A stretch of 60,575 bases of DNA from Natrialba chahannaoensis JCM 10990 (GTDB taxonomy: Archaea > Halobacteriota > Halobacteria > Halobacteriales > Natrialbaceae), in assembly GCF_000337135.1 (NCBI RefSeq), contig NZ_AOIN01000008.1, positions 1-60,575 on the forward strand. Direction: 5' to 3'. Numbering within the stretch: position 1 is the stretch's first letter; every line of letters begins with the position of its first letter. The notes beneath the pieces are model-generated. The model was given only the letters and a program-made list of their open reading frames with translations. It was not told the DNA's origin and made no database searches. Of the stretch, positions 10,277-26,057 are shown one piece after another. The position numbers and the translations under genes were made by a program.

Positions 10277-13200
10277 CTAATCACAGATATCTTCTTGATA
10301 TGCGATGATTCCCTTATTGATGTGCTCATAATTGTTATGTAGCTCAGATAATTCATCAGACTTTGCCTGAAGCTCTTGATGATCTAAGGTACGTTCACCC
10401 CAAGGAAGCCAAGCAATCGTCTGCTCGGTCTCCTCAAGATACTTTTCTAGCAAGTCCTTCCGAATATACAATAGCCAAGAATCGTACCGTGCGTTATCGC
10501 ATTGGAATTCCCTATAGATCGTAGCCCTGTTTCCATTTGAGTCAAATAGATCGAATGTCTCATTGTGATTAATCAGATCTATATGTTCACTCAGCGCAGG
10601 GGCGGGGAACCTCATTCCACTTACTTGATTCAGTTGGCTGTGATGTGACTCCCAGGCAAAGACATGTACTGGGATTTCTACCTCCACGCCGTTGCTACTA
10701 CCTCTGTGAGAGCCAAATGCTTTTTCCACGTTCTTCTTTGCTGAACCATTGTCTTCACGCAAATAAGACCCGTACCGATCAGACCACGGGATTTCGCCGG
10801 CGTATGTGTAGTAATCCTCCAGTGGATCCGGGATGTTCCTATTCCCTGGATATTCCGTTTCTCGCAGCTCCTGTTTCAACACAGAAACATCCTCTTCCGC
10901 TACTAGAACTCCTCTCAAGAAGGTAAATATCCTGAGTGCATCCAGGGAAGCTTGCTCAATCTTCCCATCAAGCAATACCCAGGGCCCATCCACACCATCA
11001 ACCGTATCTTTCACAAACAGGTCTTCATAACTTGGGTTTGGGCCGCCTGAAATCCAATCACAATACTCCGAATATTCTGTTTCAAATAGCTCGGGTAACT
11101 TGGGCTTCCACTCTTTAATTTCAGTTGGGAAGCTCGGATCGATGTCACAGTCCGGCGGGCGCACTTCGTTTTCATAAGTTGGTAAAACGCCTTCATCAAC
11201 ACGTTTTCCATACATCTCAAAATAGGCAATCCAAGAGTACTTTTTCCCGTACCGATCTACCTTCGTCTTATCTCTTCCTCGTGTATTTCGCCGATCAATT
11301 TCATTATCAATTGACTCGAAGTCCTCATACGTATATCCGAGATCTTGGACCCGGTTTTTAATCTGTTTTAGAACAGCTTGGTACTCGGGATGATCGTCGA
11401 CATAGTTTCCTCTATCTGGAACTAATCCGCCGACGGTATAGTTACTGAAGTCCATATGAAAAGCTGACTCAACATCTTCGAGCGCATCCTCATCAATCGA
11501 ATCAGAGTCTCGGAACGGAGAGTCAATTTGATTTAATGGAGGATCGGTCAGATCAATCTCACCCTGTGAGATGCAGTCACCGCCGATTCTCCTAGCAAGC
11601 TCAATAACACCTCCCGCATATTGCCGTGACAAGACATGTTTGGTGCCGTAATCCGAGTCCTCCTGGAACATTTTCTTAACCAGTTCTCCTGCAAACTCTG
11701 GAATTTCACTCCTTAGAGTGTCTCCGTCCGGGTCTGCCCACATCGACATTGCAACTCCATAGCAACTCGCTAGCATCCGTTCTCGGACATAAGGGTCATT
11801 GAAAGAGAGTGCTCGAAGAGTTTCTTCAAAGAGGAGTCCAGGATGGGCCAGTCCCACTAAGTACAGTTTATGCGTAACCCGGTCCCGTAGATGTCTGTCC
11901 GTAGTTGTGAGGAATGTAGACAGTAGAGTAATCGCATTCCGTGCTGTGTTCTCGGAAAACTCGTCAACCGGAGCTGTTTCTACCCATTTTATAATCCTAT
12001 GAATAGTTGAGTAATCAGTTGTTCGCCGCAGATATTCAGACCAATGCTCATCGCGTTCAGCCATCTCCATATCATCCAAATATCCATACAGCCGATCCGC
12101 ATCATATGGATGACCGGGACGAGACGCAAGACCAACCAGAACATCAAACGTTTCTCTCTGAACCCTTTCGTCTAACTCTTCCAAGTAGAAACCAACCAGA
12201 TCGTCAGTCTGGTCGGTGAAAGAATCCGCACTCCGCCAATACAGACCATCTAGGAATATATCTTTAATTGGTTCTCCATATTGGCGTTTCTTTGGAATGT
12301 AGAAAGCGAGTTCCCTTTCCTCCTTTGGGAGAACTCGCTTTACCCGTCGAGGGAACTCAACCATGATCGCCTCCGCTAGACCCGGTTCGGCAAATCGCAG
12401 ATTATTACCCACTAACTCGAATATTTGTCCTAATGGCCTGTTCACGTAGAAGCTTCGCCGCACAGCTGTTTCCGAGTCAGTCTTCAGATACTCTGCCAAG
12501 AGGTGGCGTGCAATGATGTGATCTCCAAATCGCTGATACGGAAAACGAACAACCTCCGTTGTCCCCTGGTTGCGGTGGAGTGTTTCAGCCAGTAAACCAT
12601 CGGAGATCATACGATCGAGTAAGTCCCAAGCTTCTGGATCTGAGAGAGAAGTTTCGTCTTTGATTGCATCGATAGCATCTTCCTTCGTAACGAACTCCTG
12701 CATCTCATCAGCCATGATACCAGCAATCCCTGACCTGTGGGTAGGACCTGTAGATGTCCCCTTCATTATTCTCCAACAGGCCTTTCGTATAAGGCCGAAG
12801 TCAGCCTCGATATCTTCACCTATTTCCCGAGCAAAGTGTTCCAAAATATCGGTCATACTTCGCTGGCCGGAGGCAACACTCCTCAGGTAACCCTGCTGAT
12901 CAGATTGATCTCTTCGAGTTATCGCCTCACAAAGTATTTTTAGAAAGAGTGGACGCGAGAATTCCGGTGTCAGTAGGGGTACGTGGGGTGCCGGAACATT
13001 GTAGTAATCAAAGAACTCAATCTGTGCATCAAACTCGTTCTCCTCGAACCCACGGTGTTCAACCTGAACAAGATGGTTTTCGGCCTCGCTCGTTAAAATC
13101 TGTTCATCGAACGGAGTGCGACAACTGAGTGTCAGACCAACATGAGAATAATCCTCAACCTGCTCAGCAACGGAGGCTAACTCATCTCTCCACAGTTCCC

Positions 13201-13981
13201 GATCAGCTTCGTTTATTCCATCAATTAGCAAAAGAGATCTTTTCCCAACCTCTTCGCCAAATGATTGTAGTTCGGTAAGTAGTTGCTCTGGACTCGACAC
13301 TGAATCAATTAACTGGCAGATTCCTTCAAGGGGAGGAACATCATCTGGGAGAGTTTCTGCTAAAACAAGAAGCGTTGGAAGCTCCAAATCCATCCTTATT
13401 TCAGCAAGGTCACACAAAAAGTGTGTTTTACCAGTTCCCCATTCTCCCTTGAGGAACAGGGTCTTGTCCCGTAAAAGAGGGAGTTCCGGCCCCTCAACAA
13501 CGGTAGAAACTCTTTCCAAAGATTGGGACAAATTTTGATTAAGCGAAATTTTGTTGTTTATGTCTCGCTGTTTCTCCTCATCTGCCTCACGATGCTGAGA
13601 TCGCAGTTTCTGGCTGACTTCACTGGTTTTGCCCTTAGCAAACCTTGTTGCACGTGTAAGTTGGCGGAGTTCCGTCTTGTCATCATTAGGTGATCTGTTT
13701 GATATTGACCTCAGAAGTTCGACCACCCGCTCCGGAGACTGTTTTCGACGCTTGAACGCTTCTTTTGCTTCCACCGGTGCTCTATTCCATTCCTCCCCCA
13801 ATTCATCAGCTAAATTGGCTAGCCGCTCTTCCAGTCTCTTAGAATAAGCTAACGCATCAAATGGCTGTAGAACTTCTGAGACCTGTATGTTCGGAGCTTC
13901 AGGATCAATTTGAGGAGTATATCGAGCGCCAGCGTGATTGATCTGTTCCTTATTGACTTCGTTGAGATTTGAGAGTTCCAT
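10277..13981 (-). CDS. Large P-loop NTPase, STAND/AVAST-like candidate
   Basis: A 1234-residue ATPase. Residues 14-35 carry AGARYTPQIDPEAPN, a segment I associate with large bacterial STAND-type ATPases of defence islands. A charged helical region follows (60-150), then Walker A GEWGTGKT at 179-186, Walker B LLLIDGINEAD at 250-260 and a sensor-like LTLSCRTPFD. Residues 400-1234 are mostly helical, with no recognised catalytic motif; STAND proteins usually carry target-sensing repeats there. It follows the methyltransferase-HEPN gene on the same strand after 111 bases and probably belongs to the same operon. A 7-base inverted repeat abuts its start codon. No transmembrane segment is seen, so it should be cytoplasmic. 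The subfamily is uncertain. Confidence 0.75.
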   Translation of the reverse strand: MELSNLNEVNKEQINHAGARYTPQIDPEAPNIQVSEVLQPFDALAYSKRLEERLANLADELGEEWNRAPVEAKEAFKRRKQSPERVVELLRSISNRSPNDDKTELRQLTRATRFAKGKTSEVSQKLRSQHREADEEKQRDINNKISLNQNLSQSLERVSTVVEGPELPLLRDKTLFLKGEWGTGKTHFLCDLAEIRMDLELPTLLVLAETLPDDVPPLEGICQLIDSVSSPEQLLTELQSFGEEVGKRSLLLIDGINEADRELWRDELASVAEQVEDYSHVGLTLSCRTPFDEQILTSEAENHLVQVEHRGFEENEFDAQIEFFDYYNVPAPHVPLLTPEFSRPLFLKILCEAITRRDQSDQQGYLRSVASGQRSMTDILEHFAREIGEDIEADFGLIRKACWRIMKGTSTGPTHRSGIAGIMADEMQEFVTKEDAIDAIKDETSLSDPEAWDLLDRMISDGLLAETLHRNQGTTEVVRFPYQRFGDHIIARHLLAEYLKTDSETAVRRSFYVNRPLGQIFELVGNNLRFAEPGLAEAIMVEFPRRVKRVLPKEERELAFYIPKKRQYGEPIKDIFLDGLYWRSADSFTDQTDDLVGFYLEELDERVQRETFDVLVGLASRPGHPYDADRLYGYLDDMEMAERDEHWSEYLRRTTDYSTIHRIIKWVETAPVDEFSENTARNAITLLSTFLTTTDRHLRDRVTHKLYLVGLAHPGLLFEETLRALSFNDPYVRERMLASCYGVAMSMWADPDGDTLRSEIPEFAGELVKKMFQEDSDYGTKHVLSRQYAGGVIELARRIGGDCISQGEIDLTDPPLNQIDSPFRDSDSIDEDALEDVESAFHMDFSNYTVGGLVPDRGNYVDDHPEYQAVLKQIKNRVQDLGYTYEDFESIDNEIDRRNTRGRDKTKVDRYGKKYSWIAYFEMYGKRVDEGVLPTYENEVRPPDCDIDPSFPTEIKEWKPKLPELFETEYSEYCDWISGGPNPSYEDLFVKDTVDGVDGPWVLLDGKIEQASLDALRIFTFLRGVLVAEEDVSVLKQELRETEYPGNRNIPDPLEDYYTYAGEIPWSDRYGSYLREDNGSAKKNVEKAFGSHRGSSNGVEVEIPVHVFAWESHHSQLNQVSGMRFPAPALSEHIDLINHNETFDLFDSNGNRATIYREFQCDNARYDSWLLYIRKDLLEKYLEETEQTIAWLPWGERTLDHQELQAKSDELSELHNNYEHINKGIIAYQEDICD

Positions 13982-13998
13982 TTAGTCTACCAGACTAA
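13982..13998. promoter_or_regulatory. Inverted repeat at the NTPase start codon
   Basis: TTAGTCT-ACC-AGACTAA is a perfect 7-base inverted repeat directly before the ATG at 13981. It sits where a ribosome-binding site or a repressor site would be and could tune NTPase expression relative to the upstream methyltransferase. Confidence 0.4.
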
Positions 13999-14092
13999 CT
14001 TTGCTTTAATAGTCTTTTTCAACATTCTGGCGTAGAGTCGGGTGATCAGGAAAATGGCCTTGATGATGTCCTAAGCAACTGGTGAATCAGAG

Positions 14093-16663
14093 CTAGGTCG
14101 CTGCTGCTCCTGAATCCTGCTGTTGTGCTATTCGTACGTATTCATTCAGACAGGCGTTGCAGAGAGCGTAGAAGGAGACGAAAAAGTGGATTGACAGTGT
14201 TCGGCTATCTTCGATCACATCTCCGTGTGCTATCCTGTTTCGACGTTGTCTAACTGTCTCGTGGAGATATTCGCTGAATACGCCGTCGAAGAACTGGGAG
14301 ATCAGGTTATCCAGGTTCTTTCGCTTCTGCGAGCGATGTTTCCCTGGCATCTTGAACTCAGTCTTACCGTCCTCTTCGACGATGTCGCCCCCTGCCTCCT
14401 CTACTAGGTCAGCAAGGACTCCTTCGAACTGTAGTACGATTCCAGCGAGGAAACCTCTGTAGTGACCCTCTTCGAACTCCATAAGCAGATCATCCAGAAG
14501 CTCTCGTCTTTCCTCGAAGAACTCTACGTTCCGGAAGGTCTGACGTGCCTGGTCCAGGAGTTCCTGATCAAACCGGTCAATGACGAACTCTTGAGCCTGT
14601 TTACGATCAGATTCAAGCAGTTCCTGGAACTCATCGAACTCGGGCAGGGTCAAGAACCAAGACCAGGCAAAGTTGTCTCTGGAAGCTAAATACCGCCGTA
14701 AGGCCTGCTTCTCCCTCTCTGTCTCATAACTTTCAATCAGAATGTGGTTCAACTTGACGAGGTCGTTATCATCTTCCGGCGGGAAGAAAGGCTCCAGTCT
14801 GTCGAAGGTGTCCTCATTCAACGCCTGCTCAATGATCGGGATTTCCCTTAGCTGGGTGATGTGGATACGGTACCAGTTCAGATCCATTGACTTCGCGTAC
14901 GTTTGGAAAAACTCTCTGTATAGAGGGGTGTTCAACAGCCGGGCTAAAGCATCCCTGCGTTGTTCCCCATCAACTTGGACACCGATTACCGTCGAATCAA
15001 ACACTGCATCATCAACCTCAACAGTATAGCAGACCGGCTCGTCGAAAAATTTAGGGATTATCAAATTCGGATTCTGGAACTTACCAAGATAGTTTGGTAT
15101 GAACGAAAACCCATTTCCTTGGTGGTGAAGCGGACTACTCTCTACATACTCTACCAGTTCTGTGTAGCCGTCATTCTCCAACTCTTCAAGCACCCTTTGC
15201 TCCGTCAAATCCATTCCTTTTGCCTCCAGAGTTTCTATGTATCGAGTGAGATCCAGCAGATAGAGATTGATAACATCCTCAGAAATAGAACGTATATCGT
15301 CAGGAGGATTCTTGATGACGGGACGGAAGAAACGTTCATCGATACCTGACTCCTCCTTCTCACTCGAATCAAAGTAGAAGATATCGTTATTGCCTGTAGA
15401 CACGCCGCTCCCAATCTCGACGCCGGAAAGCTCACCAAGCTTGGTGAAACCTTCAGATGTGAGGATGTCGTAGATTGACGGGTTAGAAAGCATTCTCAAG
15501 ATATTTCTTCCTTCCAAGTCCGCGTGAGAGGTCTTCACCAATTCCGCGTCATAGTGATTATACCTGTTTTCGAGTATGGCGTCTAACGGTTGTTGGAAAA
15601 GGCCTCGTGCGTTGTCGGGCAGTTCCATCTGGTTGAATCGTGCGATTCCGGTCTTCTTGGCCTGAGGATCACGCTCCTCCTTGACCAAGGTTAGGATGAC
15701 TAACTCGACTGAGTGGGAATCTGCGAAGAGTCCCAACGGCAGTTCAACTATTCTATGGATACTGCATGATTCAGTAAGTTGGTTGAGGAGGCCGTCTTTC
15801 AGGGCCATCTTCGGGAGTACGAATGCTCCGCGCCCACCGTCTTTGAGATGGGATACTGCTTTAGCGACAAAAGCGGCAGCAAGTGAGGGCCTTGTTCCTT
15901 GGACCCATTTACTGATTGTTTGTCGCTGTTTTGGTGGCAAGAAGCTTGCTATCGGTGGGTTTCCAACGACTACATCGTATTTCCTCCGGGAATGTTCATC
16001 CGGGCGTTCCTTGACCAATTCTGATTGTTCAGGGGTTCTCCAGTCGAAGAAGTCCTTATTAATGATCTCCGCGTTGTCTATGTCCCTGACTCTGATTTTT
16101 GCTAGTTTAGCGATGAACGGGTATATTTCGACTCCAGTCAAGCGGTTTGAACCTTTTTCGGTATCGAGTCTGGTCACAGCTTGTTTGAGAAGACTACCTG
16201 ATCCTGTAGCGATATCGAGAACAGAGTCGTTCTCTGATGATATTGCCCAGCCCGTGAGAAGTTCAGCAATAGACTCCGGCGTATAGCCGTGTACATAACC
16301 AGCTTCGGATAGGATTCTTGAGGTCTCTTCGATCTTTAATTCCCTGTACACTGTCTCACCAATCAATACCCGTCTGAGAAGTTCTCCGTATTCGTGGACA
16401 TCTCCCAATTCATAGAGCAGGATATCTTCGTCCCGGAACTCAAGAAAGCCATTTTGAACAGTTATCAGTACTCGGTCCGCAGACTCCGGTATCTCCGTTA
16501 TCTGTTTATGAGGCCCGCCAGACTCAAAGATGTAGAAAGCCTGGTTCGCTGTATCGACGACTAATCCGCCACCGCGCATCTCCGCAGCATTAACCGCGGG
16601 AGAGTCCTCTACCTCTTGAGAAAGCAAATACAGATCCAGGTTAGGAGAGTGACGACTGGACAT
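14093..16663 (-). CDS. N6-adenine DNA methyltransferase with C-terminal HEPN-like domain
   Basis: An 856-residue protein from ATG 16663; a TTG at 16687 would add 8 residues. SAM-binding motif I is VLDIATGSGSLL (about 148-159). Motif IV reads GNPPI (about 234-238) instead of the usual NPPY/F/W, so the aromatic residue that stacks on the flipped base is missing. The middle resembles Eco57I/HsdM-type enzymes, including a target-recognition-like end (MDLNWYRIHITQLREIPI). The last 120 residues form a helical domain with RNRIAHG: R808-x4-H813 matches the Rx4-6H signature of HEPN domains, many of which are RNases. The fusion suggests a DNA-status sensor or modifier tied to an RNA-cutting effector, with the NTPase downstream as partner. 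The methyltransferase fold is seen; activity and the HEPN role are inferred. Confidence 0.78.
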   Translation of the reverse strand: MSSRHSPNLDLYLLSQEVEDSPAVNAAEMRGGGLVVDTANQAFYIFESGGPHKQITEIPESADRVLITVQNGFLEFRDEDILLYELGDVHEYGELLRRVLIGETVYRELKIEETSRILSEAGYVHGYTPESIAELLTGWAISSENDSVLDIATGSGSLLKQAVTRLDTEKGSNRLTGVEIYPFIAKLAKIRVRDIDNAEIINKDFFDWRTPEQSELVKERPDEHSRRKYDVVVGNPPIASFLPPKQRQTISKWVQGTRPSLAAAFVAKAVSHLKDGGRGAFVLPKMALKDGLLNQLTESCSIHRIVELPLGLFADSHSVELVILTLVKEERDPQAKKTGIARFNQMELPDNARGLFQQPLDAILENRYNHYDAELVKTSHADLEGRNILRMLSNPSIYDILTSEGFTKLGELSGVEIGSGVSTGNNDIFYFDSSEKEESGIDERFFRPVIKNPPDDIRSISEDVINLYLLDLTRYIETLEAKGMDLTEQRVLEELENDGYTELVEYVESSPLHHQGNGFSFIPNYLGKFQNPNLIIPKFFDEPVCYTVEVDDAVFDSTVIGVQVDGEQRRDALARLLNTPLYREFFQTYAKSMDLNWYRIHITQLREIPIIEQALNEDTFDRLEPFFPPEDDNDLVKLNHILIESYETEREKQALRRYLASRDNFAWSWFLTLPEFDEFQELLESDRKQAQEFVIDRFDQELLDQARQTFRNVEFFEERRELLDDLLMEFEEGHYRGFLAGIVLQFEGVLADLVEEAGGDIVEEDGKTEFKMPGKHRSQKRKNLDNLISQFFDGVFSEYLHETVRQRRNRIAHGDVIEDSRTLSIHFFVSFYALCNACLNEYVRIAQQQDSGAAAT

Positions 16664-18994: not shown

Positions 18995-19528
18995 ATGAAC
19001 GAAGCAGACCCGACGTTTGTCCGTCGGAAATTCACAATCACGGAGAGACTTGACCAAACATTACAGGAAATGGCTGCGCGTCACTATCAGGGGAATGTGA
19101 GCCTGTGTCTGCGCGCAGCGATCGAAAGTCATCGAGAAACTCTCGAGGGAGATGGCCAATTTGCAGTTCGTCAAGTCGTGCGGCAGTTAGATACACTCCA
19201 ACAGGCAATGCAGGAACTCCAAGCTGATGTCGATAATGCCCTCGTGGAGAGGGACGAAGTTCAGAAGGAAACACAGCTACGTTCAGCTGTATGGGGCGTC
19301 GAGTTGACGGAGGGGATGCAGACCATAATTGATGCTTTGAACAGTTCTGGGTCACCGTTACGGATAGAGGATCTCCTCGAGCAGACCGAACTGAATCCAC
19401 CGCAGCTTCAGAAAAACCTAGGGCGGCTGGTTGACCTAGGATTCGTGGTCGAGACAACTGATGGAAAACAACGATACGGACGTGCTGGCCAGATCAATGC
19501 CTCGAAGAATCGGGGAGGGTTACAGTGA
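18995..19528 (+). CDS. RHH/winged-helix DNA-binding protein, copy 1
   Basis: A 177-residue regulator. The N-terminus (RRKFTITERLDQTLQEMA, then NVSLCLRAAIESH) is a ribbon-helix-helix domain. A coiled coil lies at about 60-95 and a winged helix (IIDALNSSGSPLRIEDLLEQ...LGRLVDLGFV) at about 107-165. The stop overlaps the recombinase start as GTGA, so it is translationally coupled to it. It may be a directionality or transcription factor for the recombinase. It is a paralogue of the protein at 21074-21634. Confidence 0.75.
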   Translation: MNEADPTFVRRKFTITERLDQTLQEMAARHYQGNVSLCLRAAIESHRETLEGDGQFAVRQVVRQLDTLQQAMQELQADVDNALVERDEVQKETQLRSAVWGVELTEGMQTIIDALNSSGSPLRIEDLLEQTELNPPQLQKNLGRLVDLGFVVETTDGKQRYGRAGQINASKNRGGLQ

Positions 19529-20529
19529 CACAAGATATCGATATCAGCTGCCGTCGAGTACCGGACAAATACGCGAAAGAGTATCTGCAGCACGCAGCGG
19601 GTCTAAAGCTGGCGTCCAGTACCACAAAGACGTACGAATCCCATCTCAGAGGATACGTTACATTTCTTCACGACGATAATACCTCTGTCCTCGAGGCGAC
19701 GTTCACAGATGTCCTAGAGTTCGTCGAGAAGTGCGTCCGGCTCGGGAATCGTCGATCGACAATTGAGGGAAAAGTAACGACGATTAGTGAGCTGTACAAG
19801 TACATTCGACTCCGAACGGAGGAAGGTGATGACCTACAATTAGAACCCTTACGGGTAGAAAATATCGATATAAGCCGCTACCAGACGCCAGAGCCGATCA
19901 AGCGAGAAGCGCTCTCTCGGGAAGAGTTACGCCGGTTGTTCGATGCCTTTGATTCCTATCGAAATCGGCTCATGGCAGTGGTTGCAGTTGAGACTGGCCT
20001 TCGAAACTCAGATTTGCGAGAACTCAAAATCACAGATATAGATTTTGATTGTTTACGAATTCACGTATCTGATCCGAAGGGATCGAAACCTTACGATGTC
20101 CCGATAAGCGACGAGTTGGTGTACGAATTGGAGTTCTGGCTTCGACATCATCGAACTGGCTATGCGAGGTCAGATGAGAGTCCATATGTGTTTCCAAGCC
20201 AGTGTGGTTTGAAATTAGAAACGAACGGTAGTTTTAATCAGATAGTTCGTGACGCAGCTGAGCAGGCTGGATTGCAAGAGGTAGTCGGTGAATCACAGAT
20301 TCAGCGGAATGACGGATCAATGCTGGAAAAGGATACACGACAATGGCATCGAGTGACACCCCATACGCTCCGCCATTCGTTTATCACTCTTCTCGCGGAT
20401 TCAGGCGTGGAAGTATCATATAGACAACTAGTGGCTAATCACGCGAGCGCAGAAACGACGCGCAAGTACACCCATCTGACTGAAGATCGTTTTTCTACGA
20501 TCCGGGATAGATTCGTGCCACCAAGGTAG
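19525..20529 (+). CDS. Tyrosine recombinase, copy 1
   Basis: A 334-residue XerC/phage-integrase-type recombinase with a GTG start overlapping the RHH gene. The N-terminal core-binding domain spans about residues 10-100 (TKTYESHLRGYVTFL). The catalytic domain is complete: Arg in TGLRNSDL, Lys in DPKGSKPYDV, HTLRHSF for the His-x-x-Arg box, His in VANHAS and the nucleophile Tyr in TRKYTHLT. It should cut and join DNA at the element's own sites. The neighbouring nuclease and paralogous modules suggest an integrative element. Confidence 0.9.
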   Translation: MTQDIDISCRRVPDKYAKEYLQHAAGLKLASSTTKTYESHLRGYVTFLHDDNTSVLEATFTDVLEFVEKCVRLGNRRSTIEGKVTTISELYKYIRLRTEEGDDLQLEPLRVENIDISRYQTPEPIKREALSREELRRLFDAFDSYRNRLMAVVAVETGLRNSDLRELKITDIDFDCLRIHVSDPKGSKPYDVPISDELVYELEFWLRHHRTGYARSDESPYVFPSQCGLKLETNGSFNQIVRDAAEQAGLQEVVGESQIQRNDGSMLEKDTRQWHRVTPHTLRHSFITLLADSGVEVSYRQLVANHASAETTRKYTHLTEDRFSTIRDRFVPPR

Positions 20530-20924
20530 GACTGGGCACCCTATAGAGGTCATACTGAACACCTATTTATCCGGTTCAGGTTTGGATTTTAAAGTTCTCT
20601 GAAACATAGTAAGGGTGTCCCAATCGACTACCTTTCCCTTATTATGATAATGGTATTTATAATAGATTTTTGAATAATTCTATTTGGCCACTTATTCCCT
20701 CCATATATTGGATTGCTCTGCCTATAGGATTTCTTTTGGAAGTTTTAATTCGCAAAACCCAACAAAAATAAGGTCCTGGGCAGAGAACAATTGTCTGTCG
20801 CATAGCGGAAACTCTGTGTGGCCATGCTCCGACCGCGCATCTCCCTTACCAATAGCCACGGGTGTGGTCTACTTGCTGGGAGAGACCGGGGTGCTACAAC
20901 ACCCCGGAAGCGGAGTCTACGATC
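20530..20924. other. AT-rich intergenic stretch with a hairpin
   Basis: This 395-base stretch between the two recombinase modules is strongly AT-rich at 20580-20770, with no convincing gene. At 20886-20907 CCGGGGTG and CACCCCGG form a perfect 8-base stem with a 6-base loop; it could be a transcription terminator, an RNA element or part of a recombination site. Confidence 0.5.
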
Positions 20925-21077
20925 ATGACAACCGAGAACTCCGATAAGGACATTCAGTTGTACAGAAATAAGCCCTACGGGCTGTATAGAAATAGCTGTT
21001 CAGAACGCCAAACTCCTACACAAAAAGTCACCAAATATCTCTATAAAGCACCGCTAAAGAAGGGTGACTTGAGTTGA
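20925..21077 (+). CDS. Small ORF coupled to RHH copy 2
   Basis: A 50-codon frame from ATG 20925. Its TGA (21075-21077) overlaps the TTG start of the next gene (21074) as TTGA, the same coupling style used throughout this cluster. The product is basic in its second half (KVTKYLYKAPLKKGD) and has no recognised fold. A short repeat, AGCCC-TAC-GGGCT, lies inside it. It may be a leader peptide that couples translation. Confidence 0.4.
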   Translation: MTTENSDKDIQLYRNKPYGLYRNSCSERQTPTQKVTKYLYKAPLKKGDLS

Positions 21078-21634
21078 CCCGGGATTTTTCACCATCGGTT
21101 GGTGTTTCTTCTGGGGACCAGACAGGGAATTCCTCCTCCGATGTTGTCCGACCAAGTGTGACGATTCTGGAACGACATATGCAATTGCTTGATCAAATGG
21201 CAACCGAGAGATATGCTGGGAATCGAAGTGCGTGTCTACGAGCGGCCATAGAGGATCATGCAAGATCACTTGAAGGAGAGAATGAATTTGAGGTTGAACA
21301 GCTAGTAGTGGCCGTACAAGATTTGGAGGAAAGAGTAAGTGATGTTCAAAGATCATTGCAAGAGAATTTAGAGGAAAAGCCAACTGGTGAGGACCTCAAG
21401 CAAACTCCCCAGCACCAGAACAAGGATTCAGAGAGGCAACATCAAATTTATGAACTCATTTCCAGTCAGGGATCAATCTCACTCAATCAGATCGCATCGC
21501 ATGTTGATGCACCTCTGGTGGAGCTCGAGAGTACACTACAAACCTTGTGTGATCGAGGTTTAGTCAATAAAACTAGCTCCTCGGGGCGCTTGGAATACGA
21601 AATTGATGTATCTGGGGTGTCAAATAATGAGTGA
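21074..21634 (+). CDS. RHH/winged-helix DNA-binding protein, copy 2
   Basis: A 186-residue paralogue of the protein at 18995-19528. It has an RHH-like segment (VTILERHMQLLDQMA, then NRSACLRAAIEDHARSLEGE), a coiled coil (residues 75-100) and a winged helix (YELISSQGSISLNQIASHV...LCDRGLV). The only in-frame initiation codon close to the upstream stop is TTG 21074, supported by the TTGA overlap with the small ORF. Its end overlaps the recombinase by 8 bases. The two copies have diverged well beyond a recent duplication. Confidence 0.7.
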   Translation: MTRDFSPSVGVSSGDQTGNSSSDVVRPSVTILERHMQLLDQMATERYAGNRSACLRAAIEDHARSLEGENEFEVEQLVVAVQDLEERVSDVQRSLQENLEEKPTGEDLKQTPQHQNKDSERQHQIYELISSQGSISLNQIASHVDAPLVELESTLQTLCDRGLVNKTSSSGRLEYEIDVSGVSNNE

Positions 21635-22658
21635 GAAAAACAGCGAGATCAAAGATGGGCTAGAGCTAAAGACGGGGTCTAAACTAGCAACTGAATATCT
21701 GCATTCTGAGTGCGGGGCAACAATATCTAGAAACACTGCGAAAACCTATCAGTCGTATTTGAGAGGGTATATCGAGCATTTAGATGAGATTTCGGTGGAA
21801 GTTCTCTCAGCAAAATCTCAGAATGTACGGTCTTACTTGAAAAAGAGAGCTCGACACGGTAGGCGAGAAGGCACACTTAGATTAGATTTAACAGTAATCA
21901 AGGGATTGTACAAATGGATTCGGTTGGAAACAGAAAAAGAGGCTCTAATTGATTATCTTTCTCTCGAGAACATTGATATTGGGAGGTTCCGCACACCTCC
22001 AACGATCGAACGAGAGCCCCTAAATAAAGACGAGTTAGAGGCTTTGTATGATGAACTGGATACTTTTCGAGATCGGCTGATGGTCACAGTTGGAGCAGAA
22101 CTGGGTCCACGTAATATCGACCTCCGAAAAATTAGAGTTGGAGACGTTGACTTTGAGGGCAGAACAATCAGCCTATCAGACTCAAAGGCACGTGATAGGT
22201 ACTCTCTCCCAATCAGTGATACCCTAGCAGTGGAACTAAAACACTGGCTGACTGTGTATCGACCAACGTATCCGTTTTCAGAGGATCACGATTACGTGTT
22301 CCCCTCCAACCAAGGCGGACACCTCTCCGATAGTCGTCTATTGGCAATTGTTAAAGAAGCTGCTCGGAATGCAGGAATACAGGAAAGTCTCGGAGAGTCG
22401 TGGATGTCTGAGCGACAAAAAGATGCACTCGGTACTGACGCAGATATTCGAGAATGGAAAAAAGTGACAGTCCATGCACTTCGTCATACCTTCGGTCATC
22501 TAATGGAAGAAGCAGGGCTCTCGCCTGAAGCCCGACGTGACGCTCTAAACCATAAGTCTACAGAAACCACTGAAAAATATTATTCAAGCAATGCAACGGA
22601 GTACAAAGAATTAATAAGAGAGTTGCTGCACAAGGAACGGGACAACGACGACAACTAA
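21627..22658 (+). CDS. Tyrosine recombinase, copy 2
   Basis: A 343-residue recombinase from ATG 21627, overlapping the RHH gene by 8 bases; an earlier in-frame ATG at 21603 would lengthen the overlap. All catalytic residues are present: Arg in LGPRNIDL, Lys in SDSKARDRYS, HALRHTF, His in LNHKS and Tyr in EKYYSS. The N-terminal SAM-like domain (KTYQSYLRGYIEHL) parallels copy 1. The gene pair duplicates the module at 18995-20529, but the sequence is AT-richer. Confidence 0.88.
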   Translation: MSEKNSEIKDGLELKTGSKLATEYLHSECGATISRNTAKTYQSYLRGYIEHLDEISVEVLSAKSQNVRSYLKKRARHGRREGTLRLDLTVIKGLYKWIRLETEKEALIDYLSLENIDIGRFRTPPTIEREPLNKDELEALYDELDTFRDRLMVTVGAELGPRNIDLRKIRVGDVDFEGRTISLSDSKARDRYSLPISDTLAVELKHWLTVYRPTYPFSEDHDYVFPSNQGGHLSDSRLLAIVKEAARNAGIQESLGESWMSERQKDALGTDADIREWKKVTVHALRHTFGHLMEEAGLSPEARRDALNHKSTETTEKYYSSNATEYKELIRELLHKERDNDDN

Positions 22659-22807
22659 CCCTATCATTCGCTTCTATACTCTTTTCATAGAGATCGCTGT
22701 CAGATAACGAACCTTAACCGCCATCTGGAGATCACCTCCCAAGATACACTTAGACAGTACCCACTGAGTGACCACTGCACTTCTACGAACATGCATTCTT
22801 GGAACCG

Positions 22808-22830
22808 GAGTGGTCACTCAGTGACCACTC
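22808..22830. promoter_or_regulatory. 23-base palindrome before the recombinase pair
   Basis: GAGTGGTCACT-C-AGTGACCACTC is a perfect palindrome with 11-base arms. A further half-site, AGTGACCACT, lies at 22767-22776. The palindrome lies 76 bases upstream of ATG 22906. It is either the operator of this operon or a recombinase crossover site; the extra half-site favours cooperative protein binding. Confidence 0.6.
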
Positions 22831-22905
22831 ATCAGAGAGCACCCTGAAATGGCATAATTTCAGCTCAAGGCTCTATCTTAGTCGAACAATTCTGGAGGTG
22901 ATACA

Positions 22906-23814
22906 ATGACCTGCTTTGAGCAGGTTGAGGGAGCGAGTGACTCTTTTGAGTCTCTTGACAGTGCAACTGAATCATATCTGAGTGAATTGTCAAGCAGTGT
23001 TCCCGACTCTACGTTTTGGTCCCATCAAACTGCAATCATTAAACTCGGAGAGTGGTTCCCAGAATCCAATTTTTCTGAAGTTTGGTTAGAAGACCATCAT
23101 CTATGCCGATTCATTGAATACTTGATAGAGAGCTCTACTCAAGATATTACTACGATCTGTGGATACATAAACTCCTTAATAAATTTCCGATCATACGTTC
23201 ACCAAGAAGATCCTACCATCCTCAAAGCAAGATTGCTATCGAGGATGAAATCATCCGATGTGATAGAGTACAGCGAGATCAATGAACACGTTCTCGGCAT
23301 CTCTACACGTGCTGACAGCCAGAATCTATCCGATCAGATTTCATCGTTGGTAACCTACCTCCGTGAGCGTCAGTTCGGTACTCGAGTTCACGCATATGTT
23401 GAACTCATACTTGATACATGTAGCCAACCTGGGTGTGTGCGATATCTCGACCTTGAGGACGTCAACTCGGATAACGTTACAGTCGTAATCTCGATCCCAG
23501 AAACGCATCTCGTAAGCAGGGCTGGTCTTGTAACACAGAGAGTTGCAAATATTTCACCAGAAACTTCGGAGGCTCTTGAAGAGTTCATAGCCTATGAACG
23601 GAAAGAGCCTACAGAATCCTCTGATAGCCCATTATTGACAACCTCCCATGGGAGGGCGAGTGAATCGACGCTTCGGCGGGAAATGAAACAAGCCAGTGAA
23701 AGTGCAGAAGAATATCCTGGTGTAACGTCACCTCTCACACGACACCAAACTAGTTGCGTCGTCCCCAGTGAAATCTGGCAGTATTCGATTTTGCAGCTCC
23801 TGGAGGAACAATGA
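22906..23814 (+). CDS. Catalytically broken tyrosine recombinase-like protein
   Basis: A 302-residue protein preceded by a full Shine-Dalgarno sequence, GGAGGTGAT (22894-22902), unusual among haloarchaeal genes and a sign of strong translation. The N-terminal half looks like a recombinase core-binding domain. In the catalytic half DTCSQPGCVRYLDLEDV aligns with the active-site segment of the next gene (NGGPRIGGVHSLDV), with Gln in place of the first catalytic Arg. The HxxR box and the nucleophile Tyr are missing because the protein ends early. It is coupled by an ATGA overlap to an intact recombinase. It may be a non-catalytic partner subunit rather than simple decay, since the frame is clean. 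Confidence 0.65.
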   Translation: MTCFEQVEGASDSFESLDSATESYLSELSSSVPDSTFWSHQTAIIKLGEWFPESNFSEVWLEDHHLCRFIEYLIESSTQDITTICGYINSLINFRSYVHQEDPTILKARLLSRMKSSDVIEYSEINEHVLGISTRADSQNLSDQISSLVTYLRERQFGTRVHAYVELILDTCSQPGCVRYLDLEDVNSDNVTVVISIPETHLVSRAGLVTQRVANISPETSEALEEFIAYERKEPTESSDSPLLTTSHGRASESTLRREMKQASESAEEYPGVTSPLTRHQTSCVVPSEIWQYSILQLLEEQ

Positions 23815-24941
23815 ACGAGAATATTGTCCGTCTGCTGTCGGAGATCGATGATCCTGAGACCATCGAAAAAGTGCTGAAGCAAATGGATGTGGACGATACG
23901 TCTCAAGAGAATTCTACTCGAAATAGCTTTGCTCGAGCCACCCTCTCTGATCTCTACAAGCGATTTCTCTCGCGCAGGCAGAATCGAAGCCCGTCAACGC
24001 GGGCCCAATACAAGCGAACGATTCCTCGATTCGTTGAATTCGCGGAAGACAACGACATTACGTACCCAGTAGAGATCTCTTCACCGTTGGTTGATGCGTA
24101 CGTCGACTACTTACAGTCGGAATATGACTCTGACTCAACGATCCTTACGTATACGAAGAACGCACGCACATGGCTTCGGTGGCTCAGCCAACGGGAACTA
24201 TGCGACGAATCAATTTACAGGATCCTCGATAAGGAGGAACTCGGTTTGACTCCAAGAGCTCGTGACGAGGCGATTCCGAAATCTGAAGCCACAGGTCTCC
24301 TTCATCGACTCCGGCGACGTCGACGAGGTTCTGGTATGCATGCTCTCACAGAACTTCTTTGGAATGGTGGACCACGTATTGGTGGCGTACACTCTCTTGA
24401 TGTCCCGGATTTTGACCCCGAGAAGAAAGAACTCCGCTTCCGTCACAGACCGGAAACAGGAACGAGGCTAAAGAACGGGAGCGAAAACTCGAACACGGCT
24501 GGTGATGGTGAACGAAACATTGTGATAAAAGACGAGGTCGTAAGCGCAATTCAATTGTATATCGAGACAGAACGGCCTGACGTTACTGACGAGTACGGCC
24601 GAGAGCCGTTATTTGCGACAGAATACGGACGGGCATCTCGGTCGACACTTCGGCGATGGGTGTACGAAGCTACGAGCTGCCGCTGGAATCCAAAAGATGC
24701 GGATGATTGCTCGTGTGATGGTAGCTGTAATCCTGATTCGAACGTATGCCCGGAGTCATATTACCCACACGCGATCCGTCGAGGATCGATTGTCAGCCAT
24801 CTCAGCGGTGGCCTCCGGAGAGAGCGAGCAAGTGAGCGATTTGACGTCTCTGTGAAGGTGATCAAGAAGCACTACGACCCTCGCACGGAACAAGATCGTC
24901 TCAACGATCGACGCGAAGCAGTCAAGCGTTCGTGGAATTGA
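23811..24941 (+). CDS. Tyrosine recombinase with cysteine-rich insertion
   Basis: A 376-residue integrase with GGAGG (23802-23806) before its ATG, which overlaps the preceding stop. Catalytic residues: Arg in NGGPRIGG, Lys in GTRLKNGS, PHAIRRG for His-x-x-Arg, and Tyr in KKHYDPR. Before the HxxR box is a cysteine-rich insert (DDCSCDGSCNPDSNVC) that probably binds zinc. A decayed copy of the C-terminus lies at 49441-49605. It is probably the active member of a two-subunit recombinase with the broken protein upstream. Confidence 0.88.
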   Translation: MNENIVRLLSEIDDPETIEKVLKQMDVDDTSQENSTRNSFARATLSDLYKRFLSRRQNRSPSTRAQYKRTIPRFVEFAEDNDITYPVEISSPLVDAYVDYLQSEYDSDSTILTYTKNARTWLRWLSQRELCDESIYRILDKEELGLTPRARDEAIPKSEATGLLHRLRRRRRGSGMHALTELLWNGGPRIGGVHSLDVPDFDPEKKELRFRHRPETGTRLKNGSENSNTAGDGERNIVIKDEVVSAIQLYIETERPDVTDEYGREPLFATEYGRASRSTLRRWVYEATSCRWNPKDADDCSCDGSCNPDSNVCPESYYPHAIRRGSIVSHLSGGLRRERASERFDVSVKVIKKHYDPRTEQDRLNDRREAVKRSWN

Positions 24942-25082: not shown

Positions 25083-26057
25083 TCACACTTTTTTGTTTTC
25101 TATTTCGGTTTTCAGATCCTCTATCAGTACTGGTTTCCTGTTTTGATTGATGACGTCTATCTTCGTAAGACCAATCCGTTGAGCAACTGCCACTGTTAGT
25201 TCTCCTTCAACGATCTGGTATGGCCCTGTTGGATCTGGCTCGACAACAGGCGGTGGAAGCAGTGGAATTCCATCTTCTACCCAGAATGCTAACCGTCCAA
25301 TGATCTCTTCCTCTGGTATATCTGGTGGCTGTATATATTTCGGAGATAGCTCCATGTTAGATAATTGCTCTTCTCGAACTGGCTGGGTCATGATGTATCT
25401 CTCTTCACCCTCTTCGTGGAATTCGTCCTCAGATTCCTGCCTGAACTCGTCTAATAGAGATCTATCCGCTACTGGTTCTGACCAGAATTCGAACGTTTCA
25501 TACTGGTCCATAGGATATCCAATGAGATCTGCTACGTCACGACGTACTATCCACCAGTCGTCCTCAAGATCAACATTGTACTTGTTAACATGGTGGATTG
25601 CCTCTTTGCGAAGTTCGTCACTATCTGGGCTATAATGGCCCTCACAAATGTCCTCTATAGCATCCTCAAAGAGCTCGAAATTTTGTACGAAATCAAGCCA
25701 AAAGCGCCAATCATGATCCGGCGTTTCCAAGTGCGAGACTTCGTGTGCGAGAATAACTAGATTCTTCTCAAAAGTCGATGCTCGCCACTTTCCAATATCG
25801 ATTAGCAAATGCAACTCATCGTAATCCGTGTCCAATCCGCCATGTACTGCTGCAACACGGTCTTTGTTGTCTTCCTCTCCGTCTTCTGTCTGGGTAGTTA
25901 TCTCAGAGAAGAATTTTACTATAACTCGATCTTCGACCTCTCCTGGATCGGTAATGTATCTGCAATTTGGATAGCAGATTTCGATCAACCGCTTAAAGAG
26001 GATAAAAATCTCATCACGTTCGTCCTCAGTTGGATCAGCAATCTCATCGTAGGGCAT
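25083..26057 (-). CDS. Metallopeptidase-ParB-like fusion protein
   Basis: About 324 residues from ATG 26057 (a TTG at 26084 would add nine). The N-terminal half has a zinc-peptidase motif, LAHEVSHLE, with the HExxH set near residues 105-109 and a further His in DHDWRFW, the spacing seen in SprT/YgjP-type metallopeptidases. The C-terminal half reads like a ParB/sulfiredoxin-fold domain: ELSPKYIQPPDIPEEEI, then GIPLLPPPVV, then YQIVEGELTVAVAQRIGL, matching the ParB order of position rule, outcome strand and GxxR-like box. Arg is replaced in that box (VEGEL), so nuclease or NTPase activity is uncertain. I know no named protein with both halves. It stands alone, between decayed IS ends. Confidence 0.6.
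   Translation of the reverse strand: MPYDEIADPTEDERDEIFILFKRLIEICYPNCRYITDPGEVEDRVIVKFFSEITTQTEDGEEDNKDRVAAVHGGLDTDYDELHLLIDIGKWRASTFEKNLVILAHEVSHLETPDHDWRFWLDFVQNFELFEDAIEDICEGHYSPDSDELRKEAIHHVNKYNVDLEDDWWIVRRDVADLIGYPMDQYETFEFWSEPVADRSLLDEFRQESEDEFHEEGEERYIMTQPVREEQLSNMELSPKYIQPPDIPEEEIIGRLAFWVEDGIPLLPPPVVEPDPTGPYQIVEGELTVAVAQRIGLTKIDVINQNRKPVLIEDLKTEIENKKV

Follow-up and report, generated by a model that had tools for sequence, protein, structure and literature searches.

The locus considered here raises the question of what a single gene, joining a peptidase-like half to a ParB-like half, contributes to a recombinase-rich stretch of an archaeal genome. The window, i.e., the whole analyzed stretch of 60,575 nt from Natrialba chahannaoensis JCM 10990, contains this gene on its minus strand (26057..25083), and our analysis describes it as a lone two-domain gene of haloarchaeal mobile islands with a zinc peptidase motif and a C-terminal ParB/sulfiredoxin (ParB/Srx) fold (Table 1). 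The limits 25083–26057 given beforehand coincide exactly with an ATG-to-stop open reading frame of 324 amino acids, and the corresponding plus-strand frame is broken by stops. Since both the MPYD start and the whole length recur in a colinear, 39% identical protein of another genome (P0003 from G036), the frame represents a real gene rather than a chance one, present as a single copy in its own genome. Acidic proteins and the kind of relatives retrieved point to a haloarchaeal host. The window protein is denoted below as P0001, and its fused relatives as P0002, P0003, P0004, and P0006. NCBIfam and PHROGs yielded zero matches to P0001 up to E 1, and a PADLOC match to HamA1/DUF1837 (E 0.0025, residues 137–212) was judged to be due to chance.

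Table 1. Features of the peptidase-ParB gene and of the adjacent recombinase genes (window coordinates).
Feature	Position	Strand	Basis or remark
Whole gene, 324 aa	25083..26057	(-)	ATG at 26057, stop at 25083
Predicted N-terminal zinc metallopeptidase, residues 1-193	25479..26057	(-)	profile matches to 4jiu, 5jig; minigluzincin/Wss1/YgjP-like
Active-site motif H105-E-V-S-H109-x5-H115-x3-F119-W120	25698..25745	(-)	invariant positions in alignment
Linker region, residues 194-232	25362..25478	(-)	pLDDT <50 in both models
C-terminal ParB/Srx fold, residues ~233-305	25143..25361	(-)	profile search, profile-profile comparison, model
Site of the P motif of ParB, normally GxxR; the window copy reads G285-E-L-T288 and lacks the arginine	25194..25205	(-)	alignment A6
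Tyrosine recombinase, convergent neighbor	23811..24941	(+)	Pfam SAM-like integrase domains; ~145 nt between frames
Three more tyrosine recombinases	19525-20529, 21603-22658, 22906-23814	(+)	Pfam Phage_integrase

The putative catalytic half is marked by HEVSH at residues 105–109, a distal histidine at 115, and the F119-W120 pair that follows. The sequence-only reading had placed an HExxH motif with a distal histidine in the first half, and this is borne out by the family alignment, where H105, E106, H109, H115, and F119 are unchanged in 9/9 members. In PDB, the nine-member family profile matched 4jiu (proabylysin) at E 6e-5 and 5jig (Wss1 of fission yeast) at E 1.2e-3, with the HExxH and distal histidine of the family aligned to the equivalent residues of both proteins. 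With its HExxH, downstream third ligand, and aromatic pair (x3-FW), the family conforms in its motif to the minigluzincin/WLM type; the match to minigluzincins and Wss1/WLM proteases is limited to the motif and its surroundings, a C-terminal ParB fold is added, and regions binding ubiquitin, SUMO, or Cdc48 were not observed. The same HExxH-x5-H-x3-FW arrangement is found in the YgjP-like metallopeptidases (PF01863), whose curated cut-off of 26 bits is exceeded by P0002 (27.8 bits) and P0004 (29.4 bits), but not reached by P0001 (13.7 bits, E 0.062 in a single-protein Pfam search), L055 (13.2 bits), or P0006 (15.3 bits), the match of the window protein being limited to ~40 positions at the end of the 207-position profile. 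At E ≤ 1, the YgjP-like model touches 5/5 members of alignment A2, and WLM touches 4/5. An hhalign score of 64.5 against YgjP dropped to 17.5 upon masking of the motif, with shuffles reaching up to 20.5; the similarity to YgjP is thus confined to the motif region, and the predicted peptidase assignment rests on the motif. Because the link is so confined, we would describe this half as a putative zincin of the minigluzincin/WLM/YgjP type belonging to no single named family. Structure prediction of both halves, proposed in the sequence-only reading as a check, was informative for the C-terminal half (see below) and gave a poor model for the protein as a whole. The full-length model (6 rows, mean pLDDT 51.5) displays, for all its poor quality, the order helix-strand-strand-active-site helix, and gave zero Foldseek matches at E ≤ 0.001 and no zincin match; its best VIA score (Z 5.1) was to an unrelated protein, and it was set aside as evidence. 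The VIA list for this model contained one neurolysin row (Z 3.7) and no minigluzincin or Wss1 row, an absence that excludes nothing.

The second half, initially described as ParB-like, is below cut-off for ParB_N when P0001 is searched singly against Pfam (E 0.027), and its assignment comes from combining family members. The five-member profile A5 retrieved Caulobacter ParB from PDB (6t1f, E 1.6e-4), then further chains of ParB and Noc (the list also contained calsequestrin at E 0.04–0.06, which was taken as chance). In hhalign comparisons, P0001 and P0003 together matched eight haloarchaeal ParB_N proteins with a probability of 92.8 (0/100 column shuffles reach the score), and five family members matched haloarchaeal ParB domains with a probability of 95.2 (0/60 shuffles); the P0002 and P0004 pair alone attained a probability of only 10.6 against haloarchaeal ParB_N, yet scored above all 100 shuffles. 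A model of residues 203–324 (mean pLDDT 61.4, core blocks 69–82) had ParB 7bm8 as its best Foldseek match (E 2.7e-3; probability 1.00 to both 7bm8 and 6t1f), with no match attaining E 0.001, and Noc 7ol9 as its best VIA row (Z 8.3 and rmsd 4.6 over 75 residues); among the structure matches listed for it are ParB, Noc, KorB, SerK, SbnI, sulfiredoxin, and related proteins. The agreement between profile search, profile-profile comparison, and model shows a ParB/Srx fold in the C-terminal half and speaks against the possibility, named beforehand as fatal to the original proposal, that this half would not fold like ParB or sulfiredoxin. The haloarchaeal fused form differs from canonical partition ParB in being devoid of the helix-turn-helix and C-terminal dimerization domains (no Pfam match to either in P0001), and P0001 ends ~19 residues past the fold.

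The ParB fold is a widely re-used nucleotide-binding module according to a survey based on a Pfam model (for which P0001 is below cut-off), and replacement of arginine by alanine in the GxxR motif abolished nucleotide binding in the ParB-fold proteins tested there (PMC12704722). The corresponding residues in alignment A6 are GELT in P0001, GELA in P0003, GHKR in P0002, GEKR in P0004, and GDER in P0006, i.e., the arginine is kept in 3/5 fused proteins (P0002, P0004, and P0006) and absent from P0001 and P0003. By this alignment, the window copy has lost the arginine that nucleotide binding requires in the tested relatives of the fold.

The sequence-only reading knew of no named family with both domains, a statement that does not hold in general, as fusions of zincin peptidases to ParB domains, DdrB of phage P1 being one example, are covered by a survey of polyvalent proteins (PMC5512222). 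Like DdrB, the window protein unites a zinc peptidase and a ParB/Srx fold in one mobile-element polypeptide; DdrB, as described in this survey, is a larger phage protein with an N-terminal ParB domain and a C-terminal peptidase, an order reversed in the haloarchaeal form, and peptidases of polyvalent proteins have glutamate as the third ligand, in place of which the window family has a third histidine at x5 (PMC5512222). Thus, the zincin-ParB pairing is already known, whereas for its small, reverse-ordered archaeal form nothing was found in print among open-licence PubMed Central papers. Another likeness is to ParB-CTPase-fold fusions, which also combine the ParB fold with a lineage-specific domain in a mobile setting, and from which the window copy differs in being without GxxR; the main text describing them names no peptidase partner (the word "peptidase" is absent, and "protease" occurs once, for an inhibitor tablet) (PMC12704722).

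The search for homologues with the same fusion, suggested together with the original proposal, was productive. In addition to the window genome, the fused form is present in four further genomes, G036 (P0003), G205 (P0002), G383 (P0004), and G843 (P0006), the last of which belongs to a family different from that of the host, so that two families are represented. A sixth copy, in G394 (L011), is decayed, with its HExxH gone and a stop ahead of the ParB part, and the P0004 gene (L009) contains an in-frame TGA close to the start codon end; because of these two cases, the function is considered dispensable in places. Stand-alone peptidases occur in G300, G797, G763, G048, and G742. Two of these genomes, G300 and G797, represent different families and have in common a ~3.7 kb block of 95–96% identity containing the stand-alone peptidase gene, a sign of recent transfer. 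The overall spread is patchy: with profile A1, 10/125 genomes of the host's family match at E ≤ 0.001 (six places counted as family members; four, L012–L015, left out), and in two other families 1/146 and 3/170 genomes match at E ≤ 1e-6. Beyond the named members, nearly all matches in the phylum sample (56/392 genomes) and in the order sample searched with A2 (85/392) cover the motif region only, and these were left out of the count; with P0001 alone as query, 3/392 genomes of the order sample matched. No relatives were found by tblastn with P0001 in plasmids and phages or with P0002 in plasmids, nor in the searches of the viral-contig and genome-contig sets.

The setting is that of a low-GC island (window 1–57000) with several defence-type genes, namely those for an SNF2/PLD helicase, a GmrSD-like protein, an N6 methylase, a Dsr1-like protein, and AbiEi/AbiEii. 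Four tyrosine recombinase genes stand in a row on one strand (19525–24941), with a 4-nt overlap between the last two, an arrangement reminiscent of recombinase-in-trio elements; a 28-nt inverted repeat (22762–22823, 82% complementary, 6-nt loop) lies between two of them. Distances to the nearest integrase, measured with a profile built from ten integrases, are 145 nt in the window, 398 nt in L006, 400 nt in L044, and 451 nt in L046 (decayed copy); in L005, which has the fused form, the integrase is 2.2 kb off, and the 8.7 kb contig of P0006 contains none detectable by this profile. An integrase is thus found within 451 nt in 4/6 fused-form loci (decayed copy included) vs. 0/5 stand-alone loci, counts that are small and in which L006 and L044 are not independent. 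Moreover, a part of this adjacency is expected because integrases are dense in the island (13 matches in the window genome, five of them in the window). The proposed inspection of gene neighbors produced a recurrent integrase; no partner gene common to the loci was seen in the ORF listings of those that were read. A tRNA-like 3' end precedes the integrase in L006, with 18 nt identical to the tRNA-Arg of L045; ARAGORN reported no tRNA for L006, and its sole prediction in L044 was a tRNA-Arg with an intron; Rfam found no tRNA at gathering threshold at the element end, and att sites were not established from these results. In L005, a 1615-aa sacsin-like/NO VEIN-C protein (10438–15285) is encoded divergently from the P0003 gene.

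One chromosomal site was compared between G205 and G383. The integrases at this site are identical in 313/345 amino acids, and the int-peptidase spacer (L006 9073–9467 vs. L044) is 91.8% identical over 390 nt between the two species, whereas the peptidase-ParB proteins are identical in only 131/275 positions; identity falls just inside the start of the gene and is complete again over 43 nt at the 3' end. This pattern looks like the exchange of an old allele, and a diverged gene next to a constant int fits specificity mattering in conflict, two elements being a thin base. A similar proposal for the stand-alone gene (more variable than its neighbors, L045/L101) was dropped, identity also falling in other stretches and where the shared block ends.

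The likeliest reading, to which we lean tentatively, is that of a mobile-element conflict protease, with its proteolytic activity predicted. Such a soluble protease of integrative elements would serve in conflicts with the host or competing elements, its ParB-fold half recognizing a DNA-associated or nucleotide-associated target and presenting it to the zinc site, which would cut it; the likeliest kind of target would be a DNA-bound regulatory or defence protein. In the members with GxxR (P0002, P0004, and P0006), binding could be nucleotide-gated, while in P0001 and P0003, because their arginine is absent, the ParB fold would probably act as a nucleotide-free recognition module. A bolder and quite improbable version envisions a haloarchaeal family of integrative-element proteases, gated by ParB, whose substrates would be DNA-held proteins, first of all recombinases or repressors of the element's own integration, some members being nucleotide-switched via GxxR and others, including that of the window, freed from the switch.

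An HExxH peptidase adjoining an integrase (as in 4/6 loci) also resembles int-immA in ICEBs1, and the protein might act as an ImmA-like antirepressor cutting the element's own repressor, a switch of excision or integration for which the ParB fold would sense the inducing signal. Repressor specificity would likewise produce a gene body diverged beside a constant int; nevertheless, we consider this rather unlikely, given that Peptidase_M78 (ImmA/IrrE, PF06114) is reached by one of five members at E 0.04, under cut-off, and by P0001 not at all up to E 1 in Pfam, that the ORF listings of the loci revealed no conserved repressor gene alongside, and that the window gene and its integrase are convergent, on opposite strands. 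The kinship to repressor-cleaving proteases entertained in the sequence-only reading accordingly did not emerge.

It is similarly doubtful that the gene is an island passenger whose peptidase serves a housekeeping-like role independent of the element. The stand-alone forms would fit such a role, being located away from integrases (none within 1 kb in 5/5 loci, one at 2.7 kb) and, in one pair, under purifying selection (dN/dS 0.165), but the fused form has a patchy distribution and stays in mobile settings. Finally, a Wss1-like clearing of proteins covalently trapped on DNA, including stalled complexes of the neighboring tyrosine recombinase, is suggested by the Wss1 profile match (E 1.2e-3), by the integrase neighbors, and by the finding that cells need Wss1 to survive covalent topoisomerase 1 complexes (PMC4559962), yet appears very improbable with a similarity at motif level, no DNA-binding tail found, and a constant integrase, which would give the protease no reason to diverge.

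A protease coupled to the ParB fold would represent a new output for this fold, and natural members with and without GxxR offer a ready comparison of gated vs. ungated forms; the family also suggests that the zincin-ParB pairing of phage polyvalent proteins has small counterparts in archaea. Each domain type was also encountered in other combinations. In G742 (L102 9771–11492), the peptidase family follows an isocitrate/isopropylmalate-dehydrogenase-like protein (Iso_dh match) in one frame, near the stand-alone copy; a comparable long frame with a weaker match, likewise near a stand-alone copy, is present in G048 (L080 4997–6739), Iso_dh having been tested in L102 only. An ORF at L104 1181–2560 joins the zinc ribbon of an IS1595-type transposase to a ParB_N domain.
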